Source of the DNA: Nitrospirota bacterium
GTDB lineage: Bacteria; Nitrospirota; Nitrospiria; Nitrospirales; Nitrospiraceae
Length of the DNA stretch: 64,000 nt
Assembly (NCBI GenBank): GCA_026387665.1
Contig: JAPLLG010000003.1
Coordinates: 248,001 to 312,000 of the forward strand
Direction: 5' to 3'
Made by a program: the position numbers and the translations under genes. Below the pieces are notes generated by a model, which worked only from the letters and a program-made list of their open reading frames with translations, ran no database searches and had not been told where the DNA came from. Shown here piece after piece: positions 6,160 through 57,873 of this stretch; positions within the stretch are counted from its first letter, which is position 1, and each line of letters starts with the position of its first letter.

Positions 6160-6696
6160 TTACTTCAATCGAAGCGGAAGGCCGCTGACCGTCAGGTAGA
6201 CTTCATCCGCTTCTGCCGCCACCTGTTGATTGACCCGTCCTGCCAGATCGCGAAAGGCCCGGACATTTTTCGTGGCAGGCACAAGGCCCAAACCCAATTC
6301 GTTGCTCACAATCACGACGCGAGCCTTCGTCAGCCTGATCGCCTGCAGCAAATCATCTGTGGCATCAAGCACTGCTACATCGTGCAGTTTCCGCCCCTTC
6401 AAATTGCTTAACCATAGCGTGAGGCAATCAAGCACAATCGTTTGATAACTATTGCGATTACCACAGAACCACTCGGCTAAATCAGCCGGCACTTCCGCCG
6501 TTTCCCAGTCCGACGAGCGAGTGGCCTGATGCCGCTCGATCCGCACCTTCATCTCCCGATCCAGCGCCTGACCTGTCGCTACGAAGGCTCTCGGTCCCGC
6601 CTCCCCTGCCAGATCGAGCGCCACCTGACTCTTGCCTGAAGCAGCGCCACCCAACACCAGAATGAGCTTCGACCGTCCCTTGCGTGCCTTCTTCAT
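6160..6696 (-). CDS. cobU: Adenosylcobinamide kinase / adenosylcobinamide-phosphate guanylyltransferase
   Basis: Bifunctional enzyme that phosphorylates adenosylcobinamide and then attaches GMP. It is 178 residues long with a P-loop GGAASGKS at about 16-23. The RHQATRSSDWETAEVP segment contains the histidine (about 56) that carries GMP in this family. It sits 4 nt downstream of the PduO-type adenosyltransferase gene, in the order expected for a nucleotide-loop operon. Confidence 0.95.
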   Translation of the reverse strand: MKKARKGRSKLILVLGGAASGKSQVALDLAGEAGPRAFVATGQALDREMKVRIERHQATRSSDWETAEVPADLAEWFCGNRNSYQTIVLDCLTLWLSNLKGRKLHDVAVLDATDDLLQAIRLTKARVVIVSNELGLGLVPATKNVRAFRDLAGRVNQQVAAEADEVYLTVSGLPLRLK

Positions 6697-8155: not shown

Positions 8156-10105
8156 TTAGAATGTAATCTTCACTCCACCATAGACCGACCGAATCGCCGT
8201 CCCGAATCCGGCGATCTCTTCATAATCTTGGTTGGTCAGGTTCTCCACGCGCCCGAAAATCTGCATCGTCTTATTGACATCATAGGTTGTGGACACATTC
8301 ACCACGCCGAATGATCCCATTCGTTGGCTTGGCGTATTATTCGCATCATTGTTGCGGGCTCCGACAAACCGATAGTCCATATTGATCTGCAGGGGAGTAA
8401 TCGGTTTATAGCTCACACCAAGGCTCGCCTGGTCAGTCGGCCAACGGACCAGGCGGCGGTTGTTCGACAAATCCCGGGTCGAGGTATAGGTATATTGGCC
8501 TCGGACACTGAGTTGCTTCAATACATCCATGCGGAAACTAAGTTCCCACCCCTGAGCCCTCGCTTGACCGACATTTTCCGGTCTCAGCAAGGCCCCCGCG
8601 AGTACATTCTGGATCAGATTGTCGAAATGATTCCAGAAATACCCGGCACTCAGCTTCAATTTGCCATCGAGAAGATTTTGATCGACGCCCATATCGGCGC
8701 TTTTACTTTTCTCCGGCTTGAGATCGGGGTTACCGAACCCCGGAAAAAACAACTGATTAATGTTCGGGGATCGGAAACCTGTGGCATAGGAACCGCGGAT
8801 TTTTGTGCCAGTTTCTGGATGCAGGTATCCGCTTGTCACTCGATAGGTCGTCGCGTCTCCGAACGTATTAAATCTGTCCTGCCGAGCACCTCCCGTAAAA
8901 AAGACCCGATCCGCCAGATTGACCTGGGCTTGGGCAAAGCCGGCATGCGATGAAAGAATTTTCAGCCGCGTGGTGCTTGGCTGAAAGTTCGGATTGTTCC
9001 CCTGCTCATCCCGATACTGATACCCGGCGGTCAGCAACAAGGGTTTCCCGATCTGAAAATTATGCTGCCACTCCGCGCGCCGGTTCAGAATCTCAATGTC
9101 GGAGAGGGTTCGCGGTGAGAGGGTGCTCACAGCGCCGGTTTCCACGTTACGCCGTACCGTGCCTCCATCAAAAAGCGTCCGCTCGTTGTTCTGTCCAACC
9201 GTCAGCTTCTGCGACCACCAAGACGTCAGCGGCTGTTCGTACTCACCGCTCAGGATGAGCGATCGCGTCGTCTGCTTCGACCCCAAAACGTCGGACTTCG
9301 CGGTACTGGTGACACTATCCAGACCGACATCGGAGTTCGACCAACGAAGACTGAAGTCCAACCGGCCGTCTTTCGGCAGCGTCGCGCCCACACGAGCAGA
9401 TCCCTGCCAGTTATGAAACCCATCTCGTTCTGCCGCTCCCCGCTTATAGTTCACTGTGGAGAAACCGCTAGTGTCCCAACGCGAGACCGAGCCGGCAAAG
9501 TCGAACGGTCCTTTCGCACCGGACGCCTGGGCCCCCTCTCGAATGGTCGCAAACGATCCATACTCCGTGAACAGGCTCCCGCTTGGCGCCCCCCGCCCCT
9601 TCTTCGTAATAACGTTGATCACGCCTCCCATCGCATCCGATCCATAGAGCATGCTTTGGGCTCCCCGGAGGATTTCAATTCGTTCGATGTTCTCGGCTGT
9701 GAGGCTCGAAAAATCGTAAAACCCCTGTGTCGCACTGTTCACAATGGCGCCATCAATGAGAACCAGCGTGTGGGTATTGCTTCCCCCACGGATTCGAACG
9801 GTGGCTTCTCTTCCAGGACCCCCGTTGGAAAGAACGGCCACTCCTTGGGCGAGCCGCAACGCATCCACGACCGTCTTCATCTTCTTCTGCTCTAGCTCCT
9901 CGCCGGTGATTACTTCCACCGCACTGGTCACCTGACTAATCGGCAGAGGCGTCTTCGTTGCCGAGACGACCACCTCCCTGGTTTCAATAACCGGTTCAGC
10001 TTCGGCAGGCTCTTCACCGAATACGGGCGACGACCAAACAATTTGGCCGATACAAGCTGCCACGGCGCAGCACAAGACAAACCGATCCCCACGACGAGAC
10101 TGCAT
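8156..10105 (-). CDS. btuB: TonB-dependent vitamin B12 outer-membrane receptor
   Basis: Energy-coupled outer-membrane receptor for cobalamin or other corrinoids, 649 residues from the chosen ATG. It begins with a signal peptide (hydrophobic core VLCCAVAACIGQIVW). A TonB-box-like segment TREVVVSATK follows, then a plug domain with VRIRGGSNTHTLVLIDG and AMGGVINVITKKG, and a 22-strand barrel ending in Phe. A longer frame to 10198 runs into the riboswitch. The ATG at 10105 is preceded by GGGAGG, itself part of a small hairpin, so this start is preferred. Substrate is inferred from the riboswitch and neighbouring genes. Confidence 0.92.
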   Translation of the reverse strand: MQSRRGDRFVLCCAVAACIGQIVWSSPVFGEEPAEAEPVIETREVVVSATKTPLPISQVTSAVEVITGEELEQKKMKTVVDALRLAQGVAVLSNGGPGREATVRIRGGSNTHTLVLIDGAIVNSATQGFYDFSSLTAENIERIEILRGAQSMLYGSDAMGGVINVITKKGRGAPSGSLFTEYGSFATIREGAQASGAKGPFDFAGSVSRWDTSGFSTVNYKRGAAERDGFHNWQGSARVGATLPKDGRLDFSLRWSNSDVGLDSVTSTAKSDVLGSKQTTRSLILSGEYEQPLTSWWSQKLTVGQNNERTLFDGGTVRRNVETGAVSTLSPRTLSDIEILNRRAEWQHNFQIGKPLLLTAGYQYRDEQGNNPNFQPSTTRLKILSSHAGFAQAQVNLADRVFFTGGARQDRFNTFGDATTYRVTSGYLHPETGTKIRGSYATGFRSPNINQLFFPGFGNPDLKPEKSKSADMGVDQNLLDGKLKLSAGYFWNHFDNLIQNVLAGALLRPENVGQARAQGWELSFRMDVLKQLSVRGQYTYTSTRDLSNNRRLVRWPTDQASLGVSYKPITPLQINMDYRFVGARNNDANNTPSQRMGSFGVVNVSTTYDVNKTMQIFGRVENLTNQDYEEIAGFGTAIRSVYGGVKITF

Positions 10106-10114
10106 GCGAAACCT

Positions 10115-10131
10115 CCCTTTGGCTCGAAGGG
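10115..10131 (-). promoter_or_regulatory. btuB: Hairpin that can hide the btuB ribosome-binding site
   Basis: On the minus strand CCCTT (10127-10131) can pair with AAGGG (10115-10119), which is part of the AAGGGAGG ribosome site of btuB. Its position between the B12 box and the start codon fits a riboswitch that works on translation. The pairing is visible in the sequence; the mechanism is inference. Confidence 0.45.
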
Positions 10132-10144
10132 CTGCATGAAAATA

Positions 10145-10372
10145 CCTGTCAGCTGGGTCTCCTGACTTGCGGATCGTCGTTCCCCTGCGCCTTCCCATCT
10201 GAAGCGTGAGTCGTAAAACGTGAGACGTAAAAGGACTGACTCAGTCCCTTACGTTTTACGCTTCACCTTTCACGCGTCATGACAGTGGCTCTTGTGCAGG
10301 ATCACTCCCCGCTTACAGTGGCGGCACCGTGATGGCTTTACACCATCTTCCCCGTCGCTGATGGTTCTTCTC
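10145..10372 (-). ncRNA. Cobalamin riboswitch upstream of btuB
   Basis: Reading the minus strand, the conserved blocks occur in order: GGTGTAAAGCCATCACGG, GCCGCCACTGTAAGCGG, GCCACTGTC, GATGGGAAGGC and the B12 box GTCAGGAGACCCAGCTGAC. This is a class I-type cobalamin aptamer. It is longer than usual because a roughly 75-nt self-complementary arm (about 10201-10279) sits between GCCACTGTC and GATGGGAAGGC. It should repress btuB and the genes behind it when cobalamin is plentiful. Confidence 0.95.
10201..10279. repeat. Dispersed TTACG/TTCACG repeat forming a riboswitch arm
   Basis: Near-perfect inverted repeat built from short words (GTAAAACG, GTGAG, ACGTAAAAGG against CCTTACG, TTTTACG, TTCACC) with GACTGA/TCAGTC at the tip. 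Its right part, TTACGCTTCACCTTTCACGC (10256-10275), matches 19 of 20 bases at 52844-52863, at the end of another gene. It therefore looks like a mobile or amplified sequence accepted in a structurally tolerant arm of the riboswitch. Confidence 0.75.
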
Positions 10373-10390
10373 TATAGGCTCCCCCTGATT

Positions 10391-10443
10391 AAAAATACGT
10401 GCCCCGACAAGAAGCGGAAGGATCGGGCACTAATCCTTCCGCT
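10391..10443 (-). terminator. Terminator region after btuD with two exclusive hairpins
   Basis: Starting at the btuD stop codon, the minus strand has AGCGGAAGGAT...ATCCTTCCGCT (11-bp perfect stem, 10413-10443). It overlaps a second stem GTGCCCGA...TCGGGGCAC (10399-10430) that is followed by GTATTTTT. Only the second has a U-run; the two cannot form together. The region ends the btuFCD transcript before the btuB riboswitch, or could act as an attenuator if transcription continues. Confidence 0.6.
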
Positions 10444-11341
10444 ACAAACGATCTCCAAGATTCTTCGCGGCCCGATACTGCGGCAAGGTAACCCTGGGCA
10501 CGTCCGATTCCGGATGACGATCGATCAAGACGTCACAGCCATAGACGGCTTTCAACACATCCACATTGATCACGTCATGCGGCGCACCGAGACGGAAAAG
10601 GGCTCCGGCCTTCAGCATCAGAATGCGATCACAGTATTGGCTCGCCAGATTCAGGTCGTGGGAGACGAGCACCACGGTCAGGCCCCGCTCTTCTTTCAGC
10701 CGGCGCACAATCGCGCAGATTTCCATCTGGTGCTGAAGATCGAGAAACGCGGTTGGCTCATCCAGCAAGAGGACCTGGGGCGCTTGCGCCAAGGCCCTGG
10801 CAATCATGCAGCGCTGGCGTTCACCGCCCGAAAGATCCATCACCGAGCGGCCAGCCAGATGGATGAGATCCGTATACTGCAGCGCCTGCTCGGCAATCGA
10901 CAGATCCTCGGCGCTTTCCCAGCCGAAGCCCGCGCTCCAGGTCGCGCCATGATGATGCGGGAACCGGCCCATCAGGACCGTTTCCATCACGGTAAAGGAA
11001 AAGACCTGGGGGCTCTCTTGCGGCACAAAGGCCACCGTCCTTGCCACTTCCACTTGCGGCATTGCGCCAAGATCGCGCCCGAACAGGGCCATGTCACCAT
11101 CGTGCGGTCGCAAGACCTTCGCCAACAGCTTGAGCAGCGACGTCTTTCCAGACCCGTTCGGGCCCACGATGCCCAGAATCTCTCCAGCCTCGACATCGAA
11201 AGTCAGTCCGTCAACCACCCAGATATCAAGACCCTGACTGAGAGGCTGGTACTGAAACCGCAAAGACCGCACCTCGTAGGCCTTACGTGAAGCAACGGCC
11301 CTGCCGGTCATGCCGCGATCATTCTCAGGAAAGAGGCTCAT
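10442..11341 (-). CDS. btuD: Corrinoid ABC transporter, ATP-binding protein
   Basis: ATPase of the vitamin B12 importer, about 299 residues. It shows Walker A GPNGSGKTS, signature LSGGERQRC, Walker B VLLLDEPTAFLD and the H-loop VLVSHD. The frame extends to 11362, but the ATG at 11341 overlaps the btuC stop by ATGA and is preferred. The C-terminal extension beyond the ATPase core (ending AAKNLGDRL) is usual for FecCD-type importers. Sequence alone would also allow an iron-siderophore role; the riboswitch and btuB context favour corrinoids. Confidence 0.92.
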   Translation of the reverse strand: MSLFPENDRGMTGRAVASRKAYEVRSLRFQYQPLSQGLDIWVVDGLTFDVEAGEILGIVGPNGSGKTSLLKLLAKVLRPHDGDMALFGRDLGAMPQVEVARTVAFVPQESPQVFSFTVMETVLMGRFPHHHGATWSAGFGWESAEDLSIAEQALQYTDLIHLAGRSVMDLSGGERQRCMIARALAQAPQVLLLDEPTAFLDLQHQMEICAIVRRLKEERGLTVVLVSHDLNLASQYCDRILMLKAGALFRLGAPHDVINVDVLKAVYGCDVLIDRHPESDVPRVTLPQYRAAKNLGDRL

Positions 11342-12480
11342 GCGAACCGATCCTTCCGCCACACCAGGAGATAGATGAAAAAGGGGCCGCCTGCCAGCGC
11401 CGTGATAATCCCGACCGGAATCTCAGCCGGAGTCAGCAGCGTGCGCGCCAAGGTATCGGCAACCATCAGATACAGCCCTCCGACGAGCGCTGCAGCAGGC
11501 AGGAGCAAACGGTGATCCGCCCCGAGCATGAGTCTCACCGCATGGGGAATCACCATCCCGACAAAACCAATCATCCCGCTCACAGACACGACCGCCCCGG
11601 TGATCAGGGCGGAGAGAAGATAGACCTGCCGCTTGACCTGCTCCGTTTCGATTCCCAGGGACCGGGCGGACTCTTCACCCAAGGTCAAAATGTTCAACCG
11701 GCGAGCCTGCTTGAGCAAAAGAAAGAGCCCTCCCAGCAGATAGCAGGCCAGGATGGCCAAGGCCGGATACGACGGCGCGGTCAAGGTCCCCATGAGCCAG
11801 GTCATCGTGCCTGCAGAGCGATTCGGTTCCATGATCGAGGTGATGAACATGATCAAGGCCGAAAAGATCGAATTGAGGATGACCCCTGCGAGCAGGAGAC
11901 TGTGAATCGGCAACCGTCCATAAGAAAGCGCCATCCGATAGACCACCGCCAGAGACAACAGCCCTCCGGCGAATCCACAGAGCGGCAAGATCGACAGAGC
12001 AAGAAACGTCGAACCGATCCCCAGCAGAATCGCCAGGGCCACGCCAAGGGCCGCCCCGCTCGACACTCCGAGCACATAGGGATCGGCCAAGGGATTGCGC
12101 AACAGGGCTTGCAGCACGACGCCGACGGAAGCCAAACACGCGCCAACGAGAAGACCCAACAAGAGGCGCGGCAATCGTACCTGAATGAGGATCACGCCGG
12201 TCGTCCCCACCTGCTCACTCTCGACAGACCCTTCGCGCAGGACGTGACTCACAATATCGATCACCTGACCGAGCCCGATCCATTGCGATCCAAACTGCAA
12301 ACAGATCAAGACTCCGACGACGGACAACAGCGCAAGCGGCGCCATCACGGCGCTCCAGCGCCTGGCGGTCAGCACGGCGCCGCTCAACAAGGGAGAGGCA
12401 ATTGGATATTTCAGAATGGTCGGTTGTTTAGATGGGACGGCAGATTGCGGCGGATCGCTGGTGGCCTTCATGTCAGTCAC
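11338..12480 (-). CDS. btuC: Corrinoid ABC transporter, FecCD-family permease
   Basis: Inner-membrane channel of the importer, 380 residues with about ten transmembrane helices. Family motifs include RLPRLLLGLLVGACLASVG, the GVSSGAALG loop and GEESARSLGI at the ATPase coupling helix. The start is a GTG at 12480 overlapping the btuF stop (GTGA); an ATG three codons later (12471) is an alternative. A cytoplasmic N-terminal extension of about 35 residues precedes the first helix. Confidence 0.93.
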   Translation of the reverse strand: MTDMKATSDPPQSAVPSKQPTILKYPIASPLLSGAVLTARRWSAVMAPLALLSVVGVLICLQFGSQWIGLGQVIDIVSHVLREGSVESEQVGTTGVILIQVRLPRLLLGLLVGACLASVGVVLQALLRNPLADPYVLGVSSGAALGVALAILLGIGSTFLALSILPLCGFAGGLLSLAVVYRMALSYGRLPIHSLLLAGVILNSIFSALIMFITSIMEPNRSAGTMTWLMGTLTAPSYPALAILACYLLGGLFLLLKQARRLNILTLGEESARSLGIETEQVKRQVYLLSALITGAVVSVSGMIGFVGMVIPHAVRLMLGADHRLLLPAAALVGGLYLMVADTLARTLLTPAEIPVGIITALAGGPFFIYLLVWRKDRFA

Positions 12481-13535
12481 GGCGCGACGCTCGCCGCGAA
12501 GGCTTCAGGATGGAGAATGCTGGCCAGCCGTTCCAACCCCTCGACGATCCGAGGTCCAGGACGGTTCAGAAGATCGGAAGGAATCTGATGGAGCCGTCCC
12601 TGCTTCACCGCCGAAAGCGACGGCCATTGCTGCCAGAGCTGTTGATCGCCAAATGGAACTCCATCAGCCTTCCCGATGGGGAAGACGATGATCTCGGGAT
12701 CTTCCTTCAATACCACTTCCATGTTGAGGCGTGGATAGGGCACGGAGGCCTGGCTCGCAATGTTGACGCCTCCCGCAAACCCGATCACATGATGGATGAA
12801 GCTTCCGGGACCGACGGTAATCAGCGGCTGACTGTTGAGCACATAGAGCACGCGGACGCGCGGCAAACCCTCCGTCTTGCTTCGGATCGCCGCGATCCGT
12901 TCCTTCATCGCCTTCGCGACCGCGTCGGCCGATGCGGAGCGGTCGGCCATGCGGCCGATCAACTGAATGCGGCTGGGAATCTCCTCGAACGATTCCGGAT
13001 CGACGATGAAGGTCGGGATTTTCAATTGCTCCAGCTTGACCAGGAGATCGGCCCGGAGAAAGGAGCGCGGAGCCAGCACTAAATCCGGCTGCAACGAAAC
13101 GATGACTTCAATGTTGGGATGGGTGTAGCCGACTTTGGGCTTCTGCTTGGCTTCCGGCGGATAGTCGCAAAACTCGGTGACGCCGACGATCTGCTGCTCT
13201 AACCCGATGGCAAAAAGAATTTCCGTGATGCTGGGCGCGAGGGAGACGATCCGCGTGGGCGCCTTTGCCAAATACAATTTACGGCCGAGATCGTCGACGA
13301 AAGTCCGCGGGGTGATATTCGCCATAAAGGGCATCCCGGTCAGGATGCCTTGTTGTCGACGTGCCATGTCCGCCTCGCCTGCCTGCGCAAAAGAGCCGTC
13401 ACTCCAGGCCGGGGCGGCACAGACCACGAAGAGCATGGCCGCCGCGGCCCAACCGATCGAGTGACGGCTTCGAATGCGCAAATAAAAAATCCCCAAGGCC
13501 GTAGTAAGACCCTGAGGATTGCACCCGCAACTCAT
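12477..13535 (-). CDS. btuF: Periplasmic corrinoid-binding protein
   Basis: Substrate-binding protein of the importer, about 352 residues from the ATG at 13535. The signal sequence core is SIGWAAAAMLFVVCAAPAW. The mature part begins with the helical-backbone binding fold, with RIVSLAPSITEILFAIG, VVGVTEFCDYPPEAK-like and PDLVLAP segments typical of BtuF/FhuD proteins. A longer frame to 13670 overlaps the riboswitch aptamer and is rejected. The start codon is preceded by GGCGAGG, which is close, with GGGGAA further up in the sequestering hairpin. Confidence 0.9.
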   Translation of the reverse strand: MSCGCNPQGLTTALGIFYLRIRSRHSIGWAAAAMLFVVCAAPAWSDGSFAQAGEADMARRQQGILTGMPFMANITPRTFVDDLGRKLYLAKAPTRIVSLAPSITEILFAIGLEQQIVGVTEFCDYPPEAKQKPKVGYTHPNIEVIVSLQPDLVLAPRSFLRADLLVKLEQLKIPTFIVDPESFEEIPSRIQLIGRMADRSASADAVAKAMKERIAAIRSKTEGLPRVRVLYVLNSQPLITVGPGSFIHHVIGFAGGVNIASQASVPYPRLNMEVVLKEDPEIIVFPIGKADGVPFGDQQLWQQWPSLSAVKQGRLHQIPSDLLNRPGPRIVEGLERLASILHPEAFAASVAP

Positions 13536-13543
13536 CCTCGCCA

Positions 13544-13565
13544 ATTCCCCAGCCCACGAGGGAAT
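13544..13565 (-). promoter_or_regulatory. btuF: Expression-platform hairpin before btuF
   Basis: ATTCCC (13560-13565 on the minus strand) and GGGAAT (13544-13549) form a 6-bp stem with a 10-nt loop 8 nt before the btuF start, covering the purine-rich GGGGAA. There is no U-run, so control of translation rather than termination is inferred, as for the btuB leader. Confidence 0.45.
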
Positions 13566-13575
13566 CTCGGTCAAC

Positions 13576-13723
13576 GATCCTGGGAGGTCTTCTGGCTCAT
13601 GGTTCACCCTACTCCCCGCGCCTTCCCATCCGCCGAGGCGAACAGTGGCATGTACGGGTTTCGTCCCCATTTACAGCGGCGGGACCGCGAGGGACTTGCA
13701 CCCTCTTCCCTTACCCAGGAATC
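13576..13723 (-). ncRNA. Cobalamin riboswitch upstream of btuFCD
   Basis: On the minus strand the stem P1 (GATTCCTGGG with CCCAGGATC) encloses GAGGGTGCAAGTCCCTCG, GTCCCGCCGCTGTAAATGGGG, TGCCACTGTTCGCC, GGATGGGAAGGCGCGGGGAG and the B12 box GAGCCAGAAGACCTCCC. All conserved aptamer elements are present and the peripheral arm is of ordinary length, unlike the btuB copy. It directly follows a good promoter. Confidence 0.96.
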
Positions 13724-13737
13724 ACAATGTGGAGGGC

Positions 13738-13766
13738 ACTCTAGGAGAGGAGAAGAAAGTTGTCAA
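13738..13766 (-). promoter_or_regulatory. Sigma70-type promoter for btuFCD
   Basis: Minus-strand TTGACA (13761-13766), 17-bp spacer, TAGAGT (13738-13743). Transcription would start near 13731, a few bases before the riboswitch aptamer, which supports the assignment. Confidence 0.8.
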
Positions 13767-13814
13767 GTTCAATAATGAACGGCGGCCATCTGCGCGCCCA
13801 GCAGCTCATCGCCG

Positions 13815-14072
13815 CTAGCGGCGGTAATGCAGCTTCAGCACAAGAATCGCCCCGGTTAATAGCAGCGTCACGGCATTGGTCAAAATGATCGGCCAGGCAT
13901 GAAGGACGAGCCCATACAGAAACCAGAGACAGACACCGGCAGAGAAGATGGCCAGCATGCCCATCGAGACATCGCCTGCAGACTTGGACGTCCAGGTTTT
14001 CTGCAGTTGGGGCCAGAAGGCGCAGGTAGTCAATGTCCCTGCCGCAAACCCTAAGAGATCGATTCCCGTCAT
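13815..14072 (-). CDS. SemiSWEET-type PQ-loop transporter
   Basis: An 85-residue protein with three transmembrane helices and the PQ-loop signature [20 protein letters not shown] in the first helix. This is the half-size bacterial form of SWEET sugar transporters, which works as a dimer. Length is typical. The substrate is not predictable; sucrose or glucose transport is known for some relatives. The gene ends about 50 nt before the btuF promoter and shows no operon partner. Confidence 0.85.
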
Positions 14073-14206
14073 TATCTATCACCTTTCCTGGCTATCGCCC
14101 CCTTGCCACCAGCCAGCTATCAAACCTGCTTGTCAAGACCGATGGCCCTGTGGTACATTTCCCCTTCGCAATCTTCTATCGATTCGACCAGATGAAGGAG
14201 TGTACC

Positions 14207-14398
14207 GTGGCTTTTACATGTGATCTCTGCAGCAAACGTCGCCAATCCGGCAATAACATCAGTCACGCCAATAACAAGACCAAGCGGATTTTCAAACCGA
14301 ATCTCCAGCCAGTCCGGGCTCTGATCGACGGTCAGCCGAAACGCATTCGGGTCTGCACCCGTTGTCTGCGCAGCGGCAAAGTCGAAAAAGCCGTTTAG
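14207..14398 (+). CDS. rpmB: Large ribosomal subunit protein bL28, zinc-binding form
   Basis: Sixty-three residues, starting with GTG at 14207 behind a clean AAGGAG (14195-14200). The sequence has [19 protein letters not shown], the bL28 signature, and retains four cysteines as CDLC and CTRC, so it is the zinc-containing variant. The same frame is open upstream, but the ribosome site and family length fix the start. It stands alone, with no rpmG next to it. Confidence 0.93.
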
Positions 14399-14400
14399 TC

Positions 14401-14522
14401 GCCTGCTGAAAAAGTCCGCCAGCTTCGTTCTCGCCTCGACAACATCCTCAACGTAGCCTAAAGGCTACGCCTCCGGTGCTGTCATCGGCTGCGGCCTTGC
14501 TGGACAGCCTTTTTGAACAGGC
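14401..14522. repeat. Palindromic element, copy 1
   Basis: A 122-bp element beginning 2 nt after the bL28 stop. The ends GCCTG/CAGGC and arms around AAAAAGTCCGCCAGC and GCTGGACAGCCTTTTT pair. Inside are CGTTCTCG, the central hairpin CGTAGCC-TAAA-GGCTACG (14452-14469) and GCGGCCTTG. Its central stem carries a G:C pair where the other copies have C:G. It lies between two convergent genes. Confidence 0.9.
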
Positions 14523-14583
14523 TCCAGATTCACCCGGTCCACCTCAGATTTTATCCAGCCCAATATTTCTTAGTCGGCCTCTG

Positions 14584-14916
14584 CTACGGGGCCGACCAGA
14601 TGACCCGCCCGTTCTGATCAGATAGTTTCACGGCAAATCGATCGTCGGGAGACAGAGCCAGCTTCCGACTCCCATCACGACTCGTCAGCACCAGACCCAC
14701 CTCCCCATTTTGATCGAGTCCCAATCCGGCTCGCGCCTTACCATTCACATCCAGCAGCAGAAACTCTTCGGCGTTCACCCCATTGGCCTTCTGCGCCCCC
14801 ACGAGCGACGGAGCCAACCACCACCCGCTGACGGCTCCGCCCGTGAGGCTTCCAACGAACGTCACAACGATCAGAAATCCAAACTGTCTTCGGCTCACAA
14901 TAGATCCTTTCTGCAA
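14584..14916 (-). CDS. Membrane-anchored or exported protein, unknown
   Basis: A 110-residue protein with one N-terminal hydrophobic segment (QFGFLIVVTFVGSLTGGAVSG) and a soluble part made of short repeating units such as LLLDVNGKARAGLGLDQNG and GLVLTSRDGSRKLALSPDD. These look like beta-hairpin turns, a pattern seen in small periplasmic proteins of unknown role. It is monocistronic, with palindromic copy 1 downstream. No function is proposed. Confidence 0.7.
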   Translation of the reverse strand: MQKGSIVSRRQFGFLIVVTFVGSLTGGAVSGWWLAPSLVGAQKANGVNAEEFLLLDVNGKARAGLGLDQNGEVGLVLTSRDGSRKLALSPDDRFAVKLSDQNGRVIWSAP

Positions 14917-14971
14917 TACACAGGCTATCGCCCATGATCGCCTGCATCATGACTCAAACCGCATAAGGTAC

Positions 14972-15009
14972 AAAAAAAGGACTTGAAAGCGCATGCCTCT
15001 CAAGTCCTT
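14972..15009 (-). terminator. Intrinsic terminator of tRNA-Gly
   Basis: Minus strand AAGGACTTGA...TCAAGTCCTT, a perfect 10-bp stem with an 18-nt A/U-poor interval, followed directly by TTTTT. It is placed about 27 nt after the tRNA 3' end. Confidence 0.9.
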
Positions 15010-15035
15010 CACCTCGTACGTGTAACGTCTGTGTT

Positions 15036-15110
15036 TGGAGCGGGCGAGGGGATTTGAACCCCTGACAACTTGCTTGGGAAGCAAGGACTCTACCACTGAG
15101 CTACGCCCGC
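15036..15110 (-). tRNA. tRNA-Gly (anticodon CCC), CCA encoded
   Basis: Full cloverleaf on the minus strand: acceptor GCGGGCG/CGCCCGC, D-arm GCTC-AGTGGTA-GAGT, anticodon stem CTTGC/GCAAG with loop TTCCCAA, and T-arm AGGGG-TTCAAAT-CCCCT. The discriminator is U and the CCA end is genomic. The anticodon CCC reads GGG glycine codons. Confidence 0.96.
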
Positions 15111-15122
15111 TCACTGAACCGA

Positions 15123-15152
15123 ATCCTACGACGGGCCTCTAGGCCAAGTCAA
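15123..15152 (-). promoter_or_regulatory. Promoter of tRNA-Gly
   Basis: Minus strand TTGACT (15147-15152), 18-bp spacer, TAGGAT (15123-15128). The predicted start is about 6 nt before the mature tRNA 5' end. It lies 12 bp beyond the tyrS stop codon. Confidence 0.6.
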
Positions 15153-15163
15153 GAAACTCTTGG

Positions 15164-16378
15164 TCACGATCCAGACAATTCAACTAACGCAAACTTTCGT
15201 CGACCGATCTTCAAGCGATAAACCTTCCCAGGCACGATCGATAAGACCGCCGTGGCATCGCCCTGCTTCTGCTCATCGACTTCTAACCCTCCCTGGATAA
15301 TCAGCCGCCGGGCCTCGCTCTTACTCGGCACCAGCCCCGTCTTGGCCACCAGATCGACCAGACTGATCGTCTGCCCCTCACGCAAATCGGCCAAGGTCAA
15401 GGTCAAGCGCACATCCGGCTCCGCGGGAAACTCTCGCTCGGAAAACTTTTGCTGAAAGGCCGCCCTCGCCTGCTGGCCTGCTTCCGCCCCATGATACCGC
15501 GCCACGATCAGAGAGGCGAGCGCTTGCTTCGCCTCCATCGGATGCGCGGCCTTCACGCCGGCCAAATCTTCCGTCGTGAGCAACTCGTAATACCGGAGCA
15601 TTAACACATCGCTGATCGACATGAGCTTCCCGAACATCTCATTCGGGCTATCTTCCAGCGCAATGTAGTTCCCCTGACTCTTGCTCATCTTCTTCACGCC
15701 GTCCATCCCCTCAAGCAACGGCATCGTGATCACCACTTGCGGCTCCTGCCCATAGTCCCGTTGCAGCTCCCGGCCCATCAACAAATTGAACTTCTGGTCG
15801 GTGCCGCCCAGCTCGACATCGGACTTGAGCGCCACGGAATCATAGCCCTGCACAAGGGGATACATGAATTCATGGATACTGATCGGTTTCTGCTCATGGT
15901 ACCGTTTATGAAAATCGTCCCGTTCGAGCATCCGCGCGACGCTGCTGTGCGCGCTCAGATGAATCAACCCTTCAGCCGTCATCGTGCTCATCCAGCGGCT
16001 ATTGAACTCCACCAGAGTCTTGGCCGGGTCGAGAATCTTGAAGATCTGCCGCTCGTAGGTTTTGGCATTCTCCAACACCTTTTCCTTCGACAGCGCGACG
16101 CGCGTCTCCGATTGGCCGGTCGGATCGCCGATCATGCCGGTGAAATCGCCGATCAAGAAGATCACTTGATGGCCGAGTTCCTGAAAATGTTTGAGCTTGT
16201 GGATCAAGACCGTATGGCCCAAATGCAGATCCGGCGCGGTCGGATCGAAACCGGCTTTCACGCGCAACGGCCGGTTCTCTTTCAAAGACCGGGTCAGCTT
16301 CGATTCAAGTTCGGCCCGTTGAATGACCTCCACAACTCCGCGGAGGATCAACTCCAGTTGACGGGAGAGTTCGCTCAT
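15164..16378 (-). CDS. tyrS: Tyrosyl-tRNA synthetase
   Basis: Class I synthetase that charges tRNA-Tyr, 404 residues. The signature HLGH is at about 52-55 and KMSKS at about 230-234. A C-terminal S4-like RNA-binding domain (about 340-404) contains [17 protein letters not shown]. Features such as [14 protein letters not shown] place it in the TyrZ-like or TyrS long-spacing branch typical of many Gram-negative bacteria. It overlaps the ComEA-like gene upstream by ATGA. Confidence 0.96.
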
Positions 16379-52800: not shown

Positions 52801-52870
52801 CAGACGTCTTACGTCTTCTGTTTCACGTCTTGCCTTTTACGCCTTACGCTTCACCCTTCACGCCTGACGC
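52801..52870. repeat. Dispersed TTACG/TTCACG repeat at a gene end
   Basis: Seventy bases made of the words ACGTCTTACG, TTTCACGTC, TTTTACGCC, TTACGCTTCACCCTTCACGC. The last 20-mer (52844-52863) matches 19 of 20 bases in the btuB riboswitch arm at 10256-10275. The repeat covers the stop codon and last seven to eight codons of the precorrin-2 dehydrogenase gene. Confidence 0.8.
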
Positions 52871-53503
52871 CACATTCAGCTTGGCCCGTTCATCCAGCCA
52901 GACTTTCGGATACTGAATCTTGCCCAATAGGCGGAACCCGTCCAGCGCCTCACGCAACAAATCACGGCGTTTCTCGAAATCCGGCGCATCCGCCTTGGTC
53001 TGCTCACGCAGTTGGCCAACCCACTCCACAAAGACGGCAAACTCGTCGCCGAAGATCTTCTCGATATCTTCTTTCATAAAACCGGACAAGGCCGGGGCCA
53101 CTCCGCTCGTGCTGATAGCGATGCGCAAATGGCCACAGGCCACAACCGCCGGCATGCTGACCGTGGAGGATTCCGGCTGATCGACCGACCAGAGCAAGAA
53201 TTTCTTCTCGCGCGCCTTCGCGAACAGCGCCCTGGCGAAATCACGATCCCCGCGAACCATGTTCATGACCAGAATCGCGCTCTCCAAATCCGTGTCTCGG
53301 AAATGGCGCCCACGGTGCACGACTTTCGCCGACGCAGCCAATTCTTTGAGCGTGTCGTTGAGCGACGGAGCCACCACGATCACTTTCGCCCCTGCCGCCA
53401 ACAACTGCTGAGTCTTTTCCGCAGCCTCCTCGTCTCCCCCGAGCACCAGCACCGGGTAACCTTTCACATCCAGAGACAACGGATAGCCAGAATTTGCAGC
53501 CAT
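52844..53503 (-). CDS. Precorrin-2 dehydrogenase / sirohydrochlorin ferrochelatase-like (Met8/CysG N-domain)
   Basis: A 219-residue protein from the ATG at 53503 behind GGGAGGAAC. The Rossmann motif PVLVLGGDEEAAEKTQQLLAAGA and the family Ser/Pro segment ISTSGVAPALSGFMKEDIE are clear. It oxidises precorrin-2 to sirohydrochlorin with NAD and may insert iron, giving siroheme. It complements the cobA-hemD fusion 20 kb away. Its last residues (ASGVKGEA) and stop codon are encoded by the dispersed repeat, so the natural C-terminus seems to have been replaced. Confidence 0.88.
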   Translation of the reverse strand: MAANSGYPLSLDVKGYPVLVLGGDEEAAEKTQQLLAAGAKVIVVAPSLNDTLKELAASAKVVHRGRHFRDTDLESAILVMNMVRGDRDFARALFAKAREKKFLLWSVDQPESSTVSMPAVVACGHLRIAISTSGVAPALSGFMKEDIEKIFGDEFAVFVEWVGQLREQTKADAPDFEKRRDLLREALDGFRLLGKIQYPKVWLDERAKLNVASGVKGEA

Positions 53504-56378: not shown

Positions 56379-56381
56379 ACC

Positions 56382-56492
56382 AAGAGCCTATGGCCGATAG
56401 CATATAGCTGATGGCGGGACCGGAATAGGCACTGACTGATGGTGCAGACTCAGATCCGATCTCATACGATAAGCTATAAGCCATTCGCTCTT
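56382..56492. repeat. Imperfect palindrome of GCTATA-type words
   Basis: About 110 bp between two co-directional genes. The left part AAGAGCCTATGGCCGATAGC and the right part CGATAAGCTATAAGCC with GCTCTT are imperfectly complementary. It resembles neither the 120-bp elements nor the TTACG repeat. Possibly a third class of intergenic palindrome. Confidence 0.5.
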
Positions 56493-56852: not shown

Positions 56853-57365
56853 ATGGCCAGCGCCACACACCAAGAGCACAAATCCCATGCACCCAAATCC
56901 ATTGGGTGCATGGTCATTACCTGCAGCGATACCAGAACCCCCGACACCGATACCAGCGGACAGGCCATCCACAAACTGCTCCGGCAGTTCGGGCATGAAG
57001 TCGTGGTCTACCATTTAGTAAAGGATGAGCCGGCCCAAATCACGGACCGGATCAAAGAAGGCCTCACAAACGATGCCGTCCAGGCCATCATCATCAATGG
57101 CGGCACCGGCATTTCGAAGAGGGACTCAACCTTCGAAGCGGTCGATGCAATGTTGGAAAAACGGCTGGTGGGATTCGGCGAAATCTTCCGCTACCTAACC
57201 TATATGGACATCGGCTCCCCGGCCATCATGAGCCGCGCCACAGCCGGCATCATCAAGGGCCGCATCCTGTTCTCCACCCCCGGCTCCGAAAACGCCGTCC
57301 GGATGGCGATGGAAAAACTCATCCTTCCAGAGCTCGGCCACCTCGTCAAAGAACTCAGCAAATAG
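56853..57365 (+). CDS. moaB: Molybdenum cofactor biosynthesis protein MoaB/MogA-type
   Basis: A 170-residue molybdopterin adenylyltransferase-fold protein. It shows VITCSDTRTPDTDTSG, the INGGTGISKRDSTFEAV loop, FGEIFRYLTYMDIGSPA and the STPGSENAVRMAM segment. MogA-like proteins adenylylate molybdopterin before metal insertion. No other moa/moe gene is nearby. Confidence 0.92.
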   Translation: MASATHQEHKSHAPKSIGCMVITCSDTRTPDTDTSGQAIHKLLRQFGHEVVVYHLVKDEPAQITDRIKEGLTNDAVQAIIINGGTGISKRDSTFEAVDAMLEKRLVGFGEIFRYLTYMDIGSPAIMSRATAGIIKGRILFSTPGSENAVRMAMEKLILPELGHLVKELSK

Positions 57366-57369
57366 AATA

Positions 57370-57433
57370 GTGCTGAGTGCTGCGACGTGAGTGCTGAGAT
57401 GGATTCAGCGACTCAGGACTCAGCACCCAGCAC
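57370..57433. repeat. Palindrome of GTGCTGA-type words between convergent genes
   Basis: GTGCTGAGTGCTG (57370-57382) pairs with CAGCACCCAGCAC (57421-57433), 12 of 13 bases; an inner GTGCTGAG/CTCAG arm continues the stem. It starts 5 nt after the moaB stop and ends 5 nt before the stop of the CBS gene, so it may act as a bidirectional terminator. Confidence 0.7.
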
Positions 57434-57438
57434 TTTCC

Positions 57439-57873
57439 TCAGTCCTGCCCGATCTTTGGTTCCGAGTACTTCACCTCCGGTGAAATTTCGGACTGCGCAT
57501 AGCGCTTATAAAACATCATCACATCCCGCACCGACACGACTCCCACGATCTCCCCGGCTTTGGTCACAGCGAGATGGCGCACACCCAGGTCGCCCATCAT
57601 GTCCTGCGCATCGTTCACCGACTCACTCCCTTCGATCGTGCAAATGGGGGTCGTCATAACCATCTCGACGGTCATCTTGCCGAGCGGCTTGTTGGACGAA
57701 ACAGCGCGGCGGACAATATCCGTATCGGTGAGGATCCCGACCAGCTTCTTCCCCTTCTTCACAAACAGCGAGCCGACCCGCGCAGCCTTCATTTTCTTCG
57801 CCGCGCTCACAATCGACACACCAGGGCCCACGGTCTTGGGGTGCTTGCTCATGATCTTTGCCACGGTGGACAT
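57439..57873 (-). CDS. CBS-domain-pair protein, second paralogue
   Basis: A 144-residue protein with two CBS motifs, [19 protein letters not shown] and RHLAVTKAGEIVGVVSVRD, closely resembling the protein at 31237-31629, plus a C-terminal tail. It probably binds adenine nucleotides. It has no operon partner; the upstream 270 bases carry palindromic copy 5. Confidence 0.87.
   Translation of the reverse strand: MSTVAKIMSKHPKTVGPGVSIVSAAKKMKAARVGSLFVKKGKKLVGILTDTDIVRRAVSSNKPLGKMTVEMVMTTPICTIEGSESVNDAQDMMGDLGVRHLAVTKAGEIVGVVSVRDVMMFYKRYAQSEISPEVKYSEPKIGQD

Follow-up and report, generated by a model that had tools for sequence, protein, structure and literature searches.

By architecture, the closest precedent for the elements described here is stem P6b in the trnL(UAA) group I intron of Nostoc. 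This stem consists of heptads belonging to two classes, TDNGATT and NNTGAGT, one of which has repeatedly replaced the other (PMC4476775). It varies in length around a conserved intron core, and mobile repeats are among the causes that have been considered (PMC4476775). Heptameric intergenic repeats, such as the GGGAATC type of Xanthomonas and Nostoc, are over-represented in bacteria and have been little studied, with the repeats investigated in these genera being G-rich arrays with the potential to form G-quadruplexes (PMC4692102). REP elements, in turn, are palindromes given as 20-40 nt long in one account (PMC3733652), with many copies of a common consensus. The RNA that concerns us is the AdoCbl (Cbl-I) riboswitch, which has a variable peripheral domain with the P6 extension and the helices P7-P11 (PMC5359240, PMC11260477). 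In the btuB riboswitch of Escherichia coli, P11 is flanked by the junctions J10/11 and J11/10, and P10-P11 contact J6/3 on ligand binding (PMC5359240).

We analysed a window, that is, the whole of a 64,000-nucleotide stretch from a Nitrospirota bacterium (GCA_026387665.1, contig JAPLLG010000003.1, positions 248,001 to 312,000 of the forward strand), whose genome of 2.64 Mb encodes a TyrS up to 97% identical to those of named Nitrospira genomes. Like other AdoCbl riboswitches of the RF00174 family, those of Nitrospira match the model over its full length and possess the CCACU...GGGAAGG blocks and the B12 box; unlike them, they can have a putative P11 of 82-104 nt made up of genomic heptad palindromes. 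As in Nostoc P6b, this is a peripheral stem of degenerate heptads whose word classes have been swapped repeatedly while the core was kept, although the words themselves differ and the likeness is one of architecture alone. Whereas the Nostoc stem belongs to a self-splicing intron of cyanobacteria and has two word classes, the Nitrospira stem belongs to a ligand-sensing riboswitch, has at least seven word families, occurs at two loci per genome and has an empty state of 12-16 nt on identical cores. Degenerate 7-nt units, often about four of them, lying between genes and in some cases inverted, are common to the Nitrospira elements and the Xanthomonas/Nostoc repeats (PMC4692102), but the former are often two-armed palindromes of many word families, some of them inside riboswitches. 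With REP/BIME and MITE they have in common that they are dispersed, short, intergenic and hairpin-forming; they differ in having a heptad inner structure and no conserved ends or consensus, and in that no target duplication was seen at the one empty/filled pair with identical cores. Identity with REP was rejected, the arms being 82-104 nt long and the long dispersed matches of the two arms searched being at most about 76% identical. In the open-access literature we found neither heptads inside riboswitches nor a Nitrospira heptad class described, most subscription papers lying outside that scope. What is new here is a heptad-built peripheral stem in a ligand-sensing RNA, such stems being already known elsewhere.

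An armed and an armless riboswitch in one btu cluster

The window contains two cobalamin riboswitches 3-4 kb apart, at what we term loci A and B, both of which match RF00174 over its full length (1-189) with scores of 81.2 and 100.1 bits as against a gathering score of 31.5. At locus A, about 79 nt between GCCACU and GGGAAGG lie outside the cmscan fit to the model. With CCACU placed at J10/11 and GGGAAGG at J11/10, the variable stem would by analogy correspond to P11; the other conclusions are independent of this label. The features of this region are:

10135-10397, minus strand: cobalamin riboswitch aptamer of the AdoCbl type, locus A (RF00174, cmscan 81.2 bits, model positions 1-189)
10197-10283, minus strand: heptad-repeat palindromic arm replacing or extending the putative P11 stem-loop (87 nt, bounded by CACT and GGGAAGG)
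10200-10232, unstranded: heptad block 1 of the locus A palindrome, plus-strand words CGTGAGT/CGTAAAA (period-7 scan, TRF)
10246-10279, unstranded: heptad block 2, plus-strand words TTACGTT/TTACGCT/TCACCTT (period-7 scan, inverted repeat I1)
13565-13734, minus strand: second cobalamin riboswitch, locus B, with no arm (cmscan 100.1 bits)
13628-13643, minus strand: short plain stem-loop at the putative P11 of riboswitch B, GTTCGCCTCGGCGGAT, 16 nt, the empty state
8156-10198, minus strand: BtuB-like TonB-dependent receptor ORF (TIGR01779 E 2e-85, under the cut-off; Pfam barrel and plug above the cut-off)
11338-12480, minus strand: BtuC-like permease (NF007081 E 1.5e-77, under the cut-off; PF01032)
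12477-13670, minus strand: BtuF-like periplasmic binding protein (NF002894 BtuF E 1.8e-37, under the cut-off; PF01497)

A preliminary description of this DNA had placed a self-complementary arm between two conserved aptamer blocks of the btuB riboswitch, and both cmscan and folding confirm it: the minus strand of 10190-10300 folds into one hairpin of -44.2 kcal/mol, with shuffled sequences reaching -27.9 +/- 3.6 (z -4.5), and the cobalamin Rfam model, suggested there as a check, fits locus A along its full length with the arm as an unfitted insert. The extent given there (10201-10279, 75 nt) was slightly too narrow, as the arm covers 87 nt. The TTACG/TTCACG words named in that description are in reality 7 nt long, as seen in the TRF result and the period-7 blocks. 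Within the arm, CGTGAAA and CGTAAAA stand opposite TTTTACG and TCACGCT, a 14-nt tandem is detected by TRF at 10205-10232, and the basal GTC...GAT is retained. The second riboswitch lacks the arm, as had been stated, and has its 16-nt hairpin at exactly the same place.

Genes related to B12 lie 3' of both riboswitches, with the BtuB-like receptor following A and the BtuF- and BtuC-like proteins following B. The receptor probably begins at an ATG inside its ORF, near 10105 and thus past the aptamer; the predicted start of the BtuF-like gene overlaps the aptamer of B, and its real start is probably further downstream. The order on the minus strand over 8156-16378 is tyrS, a tRNA, riboswitch B, the BtuF-like, BtuC-like and ATPase genes, riboswitch A and the BtuB-like gene. 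This block is apparently kept from tyrS to the BtuB-like gene in several relatives, making a locus-by-locus comparison possible. In one genome (G029; L037, C6:88646 and 89059), two cobalamin riboswitches of different paralogue groups lie in tandem about 220 nt apart.

Arms across the genus Nitrospira

We surveyed 61 cobalamin riboswitches from 32 Nitrospira genomes, most of them MAGs, with one duplicated locus removed and weak or unparsed RF00174 matches (L062, L065 and L093-L096) left out; arms were extracted by pattern, and a few copies were missed as a result. The candidate P11 stem is bimodal in length, measuring 12-16 nt in 24 of the 61 and 82-104 nt in 37, with none between. Every one of the 37 long stems is a heptad palindrome, in which degenerate 7-nt repeats pair with each other in a peripheral stem. 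In their half-arms the self-match at distance 7 is 0.59, as against 0.26 after shuffling (z 36), and only the periods 7, 14 and 21 stand out. All of them fold as hairpins, although in three the fold of minimum energy contains a mispaired base. The basal GTC...GAT is present in 22 of the 37 long stems and 7 of the 24 short ones, and riboswitches of group D always have a short stem. At least seven word families are found among the long arms:

CGTRA: window, G001, G022
CGTTA: G002, G003, G016 and others
GTGAT: two module types
GTCAA: G005, G011, G017
CTGANNG: G008
CGTGAAG: G008, G019
CGTGA/CGTATCT, mixed: G020

These word classes change between related species of the genus. Locus A of four genomes (G014, G025, G028 and G030) and locus B of G009 share a GTGAT module of about 100 nt with the same unique centre (89% identity). 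The cultured N. moscoviensis NSP M-1 has arms in both of its riboswitches, with the words GTGAT and GTGAC. Other genera of the family also bear arms, including some of 64 and 72 nt, and among the matches listed the cobalamin riboswitches elsewhere in the family mostly span 170-205 nt, which corresponds to the armless form. The view that the arm is a rare natural insertion is not supported, as an arm occupies the same place in 37 of 61 riboswitches of the genus and comes in at least seven word families.

Armed and armless stems are found on identical or nearly identical cores. At locus B, 0 of 170 core positions differ between G023, whose stem has 16 nt, and G027, where it has 100 nt, and G010 (15 nt) and G009 (102 nt) have one core difference; at locus A, G023 (15 nt) has one core difference from each of G027 and G028 (about 103 nt). 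On the TyrS tree, the presence and absence of arms require at least seven changes at locus B and at least five at locus A, with gains and losses being indistinguishable. In the clade to which the window belongs, the stem at locus B is short in the window and armed in four relatives. The comparison of leaders between sister species, which had been proposed earlier, thus finds the arm present or absent over such cores. Since both states occur on identical cores and the words differ between species, the arm is not a conserved normal part of the riboswitch, which is one of the outcomes that the preliminary description had named as speaking against its reading.

Folding and specificity of the arms

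The mean pairing probability between the arm and the rest of the RNA is 0.019, compared with 0.209 for shuffled arms, and is lower than in the shuffles for all 37 arms. Together with the hairpin computed for the window (z -4.5), this agrees with the earlier statement that the arm folds on itself, and the arm is predicted to be insulated from the aptamer. In the pair columns of the predicted structures, G-U and A-C variants stand at 44:11 on the transcribed strand and 25:21 on the other (Fisher p 0.009), which suggests that pairing in the RNA is under weak selection. Three module alignments contain few compensatory changes on both sides of a pair (0, 2 and 1 pairs), so that the case for selection on the stem comes mainly from the G-U asymmetry. 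Covariation was for the same reason dropped as the main proof of the stem and replaced by the test of strand asymmetry.

Two other structured RNAs served as controls across the genus, and neither has such inserts. The span of RNase P RNA is 426-428 nt in almost every genome, with shorter forms in G007 and as an additional copy in G018, while that of the TPP riboswitch is 103-104 nt in all of them. In syntenic 17-kb loci, counted by eye, a two-armed element is present in about 13 of 20 riboswitches as against about 5 of about 200 other gaps, an enrichment with p 1e-12 when kinship is ignored.

Heptad elements outside the riboswitches

Three further heptad elements lie in the window:

52804-52877, unstranded: dispersed heptad array with the words of the locus A arm, including the 20-mer match
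56380-56417, unstranded: heptad array with words of the GCTGATG type, close to where a short ORF ends (period-7 scan)
57369-57440, unstranded: heptad palindrome of another word, AGTGCTG/GACTCAGCA (TRF, period-7 scan)

The first contains, at 52844-52863, the recurrence with one mismatch of the 20-mer TTACGCTTCACCTTTCACGC (10256-10275) from the arm, which had been noticed before and for which 0.01 matches with up to three mismatches are expected per window. The array consists mostly of direct heptads and is only weakly foldable. The other two elements had been missed; the palindrome at 57369-57440 has an arm-like architecture and lies between the ORFs 56853-57365 (plus strand) and 57439-57873 (minus strand). 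The genome-wide search proposed in the preliminary description shows the words of the arm to be dispersed: a three-heptad pattern has 32 matches in the window's genome and its reversed control has 1, and CGTRANR triplets number 26 (control 1). In the same genome, the CGTGAAA, CGTATCT and GCTGATG families are neighbours within a single intergenic region (C5:40320, L014), and CTGAATG adjoins CGTTTTA in another (C8:217123, L028).

The genomes of the genus each contain between 0 and 89 CGTRANR triplets and between 0 and 50 GTGAYNR triplets (controls 0-2 in both cases), counts to which, in arm-bearing genomes, the arms contribute a few matches. In N. moscoviensis the GTGAYNR triplets number 165, as against 1 in the control. 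These counts and their controls support the earlier assignment of the arm to a dispersed repeat class. Dispersed GTGAT has a median of 35 in genomes with GTGAT arms and of 1 in the others (Mann-Whitney p 1e-4, uncorrected for kinship). With kinship allowed for, three independent contrasts are concordant and not significant, and a general rule that the arm word follows the dispersed word was dropped on this account. In 800 kb drawn from two genomes (400 kb each), 52 blocks are seen at period 7 and 5-31 at periods 5, 6, 8 and 10. Heptad palindromes with two arms are numerous in a de novo analysis of the same sequence; they measure about 80-130 nt, lie mostly outside long ORFs and have words including GTGCTGA, GCTGATG, CGTATGG and GGCGAGA. 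The many single-armed clusters inside ORFs that appear at a looser cut-off are probably noise. Dispersed copies are mostly intergenic and occur in both orientations. A search with two arms for a donor copy outside riboswitches found no long match above about 76% identity, and direct copying from a dispersed element is therefore unsupported.

In samples from G000 (C7, L298-L317) and G028 (C8, L318-L337), each element apparently has one word family in both of its arms, and the elements of one genome differ from each other in word. To our knowledge, no known process explains this pattern of one word per element in two-armed heptads. Many species of the genus also have a small heptad hairpin immediately beyond tyrS, at what looks like a conserved site:

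9345-9380 (L219), 9351-9379 (L222), 9343-9380 (L229), 6547-6587 (L233) and 1906-1941 (L240): hairpin of the GACGTGAAACGTGAGGCGTGAAGCGTC type past tyrS

Proposed explanation and alternatives

We consider it probable that heptad-repeat palindromes, of a class dispersed in Nitrospira, repeatedly lengthen a tolerant P11, in which they are predicted to be insulated from the aptamer. A palindrome would have extended the P11 of an otherwise ordinary AdoCbl riboswitch from about 15 nt to 87 nt; in it, an array of 7-nt words, each with about five pairing letters and two looser ones, faces its inverted counterpart across a unique centre. The arrays and palindromes are dispersed mostly between genes, with the prevailing word family varying by genome, and palindromes have come, gone or been swapped at the putative P11 many times in both riboswitches of the btu cluster, in every case within the segment bounded by CCACU and GGGAAGG. 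Stacked on P11, the palindrome would form a self-contained hairpin directed away from the ligand pocket, so that the aptamer could keep folding and sensing; the intact core suggests that the switch still works. As an apical self-folding extension would spare both the pocket and the kissing loop, this tolerance may be why P11 collects arms. The arms could have arrived as inserted palindromes, been exchanged between the two riboswitches or grown in place. Given the bimodal lengths and the module common to loci A and B, we favour the movement of finished modules.

Growth in place, the kind of repeat expansion named in the preliminary description, is nevertheless a possibility, if a tentative one. 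Slippage or hairpin-templated copying of short words would have acted inside P11 independently of the dispersed copies, whose likeness to the arms would reflect the same mutational process operating everywhere. The absence of a close donor outside riboswitches and the largely mono-word character of each arm over both its halves agree with it, as does the proposal of polymerase slippage as the cause of the over-represented bacterial heptads (PMC4692102). However, the genus has no stems between 16 and 82 nt, even though 64-nt and 72-nt arms exist elsewhere in the family, and the occurrence of the same module and centre at locus A of four genomes and locus B of G009 points to a finished module having moved. 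It is also conceivable, if equally tentative, that the palindromes of Nitrospira are unrecognised self-propagating or self-generating elements, in which the architecture (four to five words per arm, about five pairing and two looser letters, a unique centre) is conserved while the word is free, and which prefer RNA hairpins, with P11 as a natural landing site.

It seems unlikely that the arms are true mobile elements akin to MITE or REP, moved by a host enzyme and targeting hairpin loops, with P11 as an insertion hot spot. In favour of such elements are the repeated gain or loss of an arm at a single stem-loop, seen at both loci and in several genera, the strong enrichment of P11 over other intergenic gaps and the mostly intergenic copies in both orientations. 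Yet conserved ends and identical copies are absent, words vary between elements while the architecture is constant, no target duplication was seen at the one empty/filled pair with an identical core (L064/L077), and the stem-loops of RNase P RNA and the TPP riboswitch are never hit, though insertions there may be lethal. We regard as improbable the alternative that the long arm is an ancestral functional part, for instance a protein-binding or folding-control stem, which drifts in sequence but keeps its shape, with short forms being secondary losses. The prevalence of long forms (37 of 61), their presence in other genera and the G-U bias of the transcribed strand are consistent with it; against it stand the mostly armless spans among the matches listed elsewhere in the family, the invariably short stems of group D, the occurrence of either form on identical cores, and word changes that are wholesale rather than drift-like. 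Finally, chance resemblance of an unrelated stem to the 52.8-kb sequence, which short low-complexity words can in principle produce and which had been raised as an objection to the 20-mer match, is of negligible probability and is refuted by the genome-wide counts, with 0.01 matches expected per window, 32 three-heptad matches as against 1 for the reversed control and a period-7 z of 36 over 37 arms.

Implications

The riboswitches of Nitrospira provide a natural series of insertions, all of them into the same stem of a well-characterised RNA, at two loci and in many species, of which N. moscoviensis is cultured. Aptamers identical at 170 positions, with and without a stem longer by 84 nt, amount to natural experiments on the tolerance of insertions. 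They make testable how an RNA absorbs repeats, how P11 length relates to AdoCbl affinity and switching, and how heptad palindromes spread. The parallel to the Nostoc intron, in a different RNA and a different phylum, hints at a general process.
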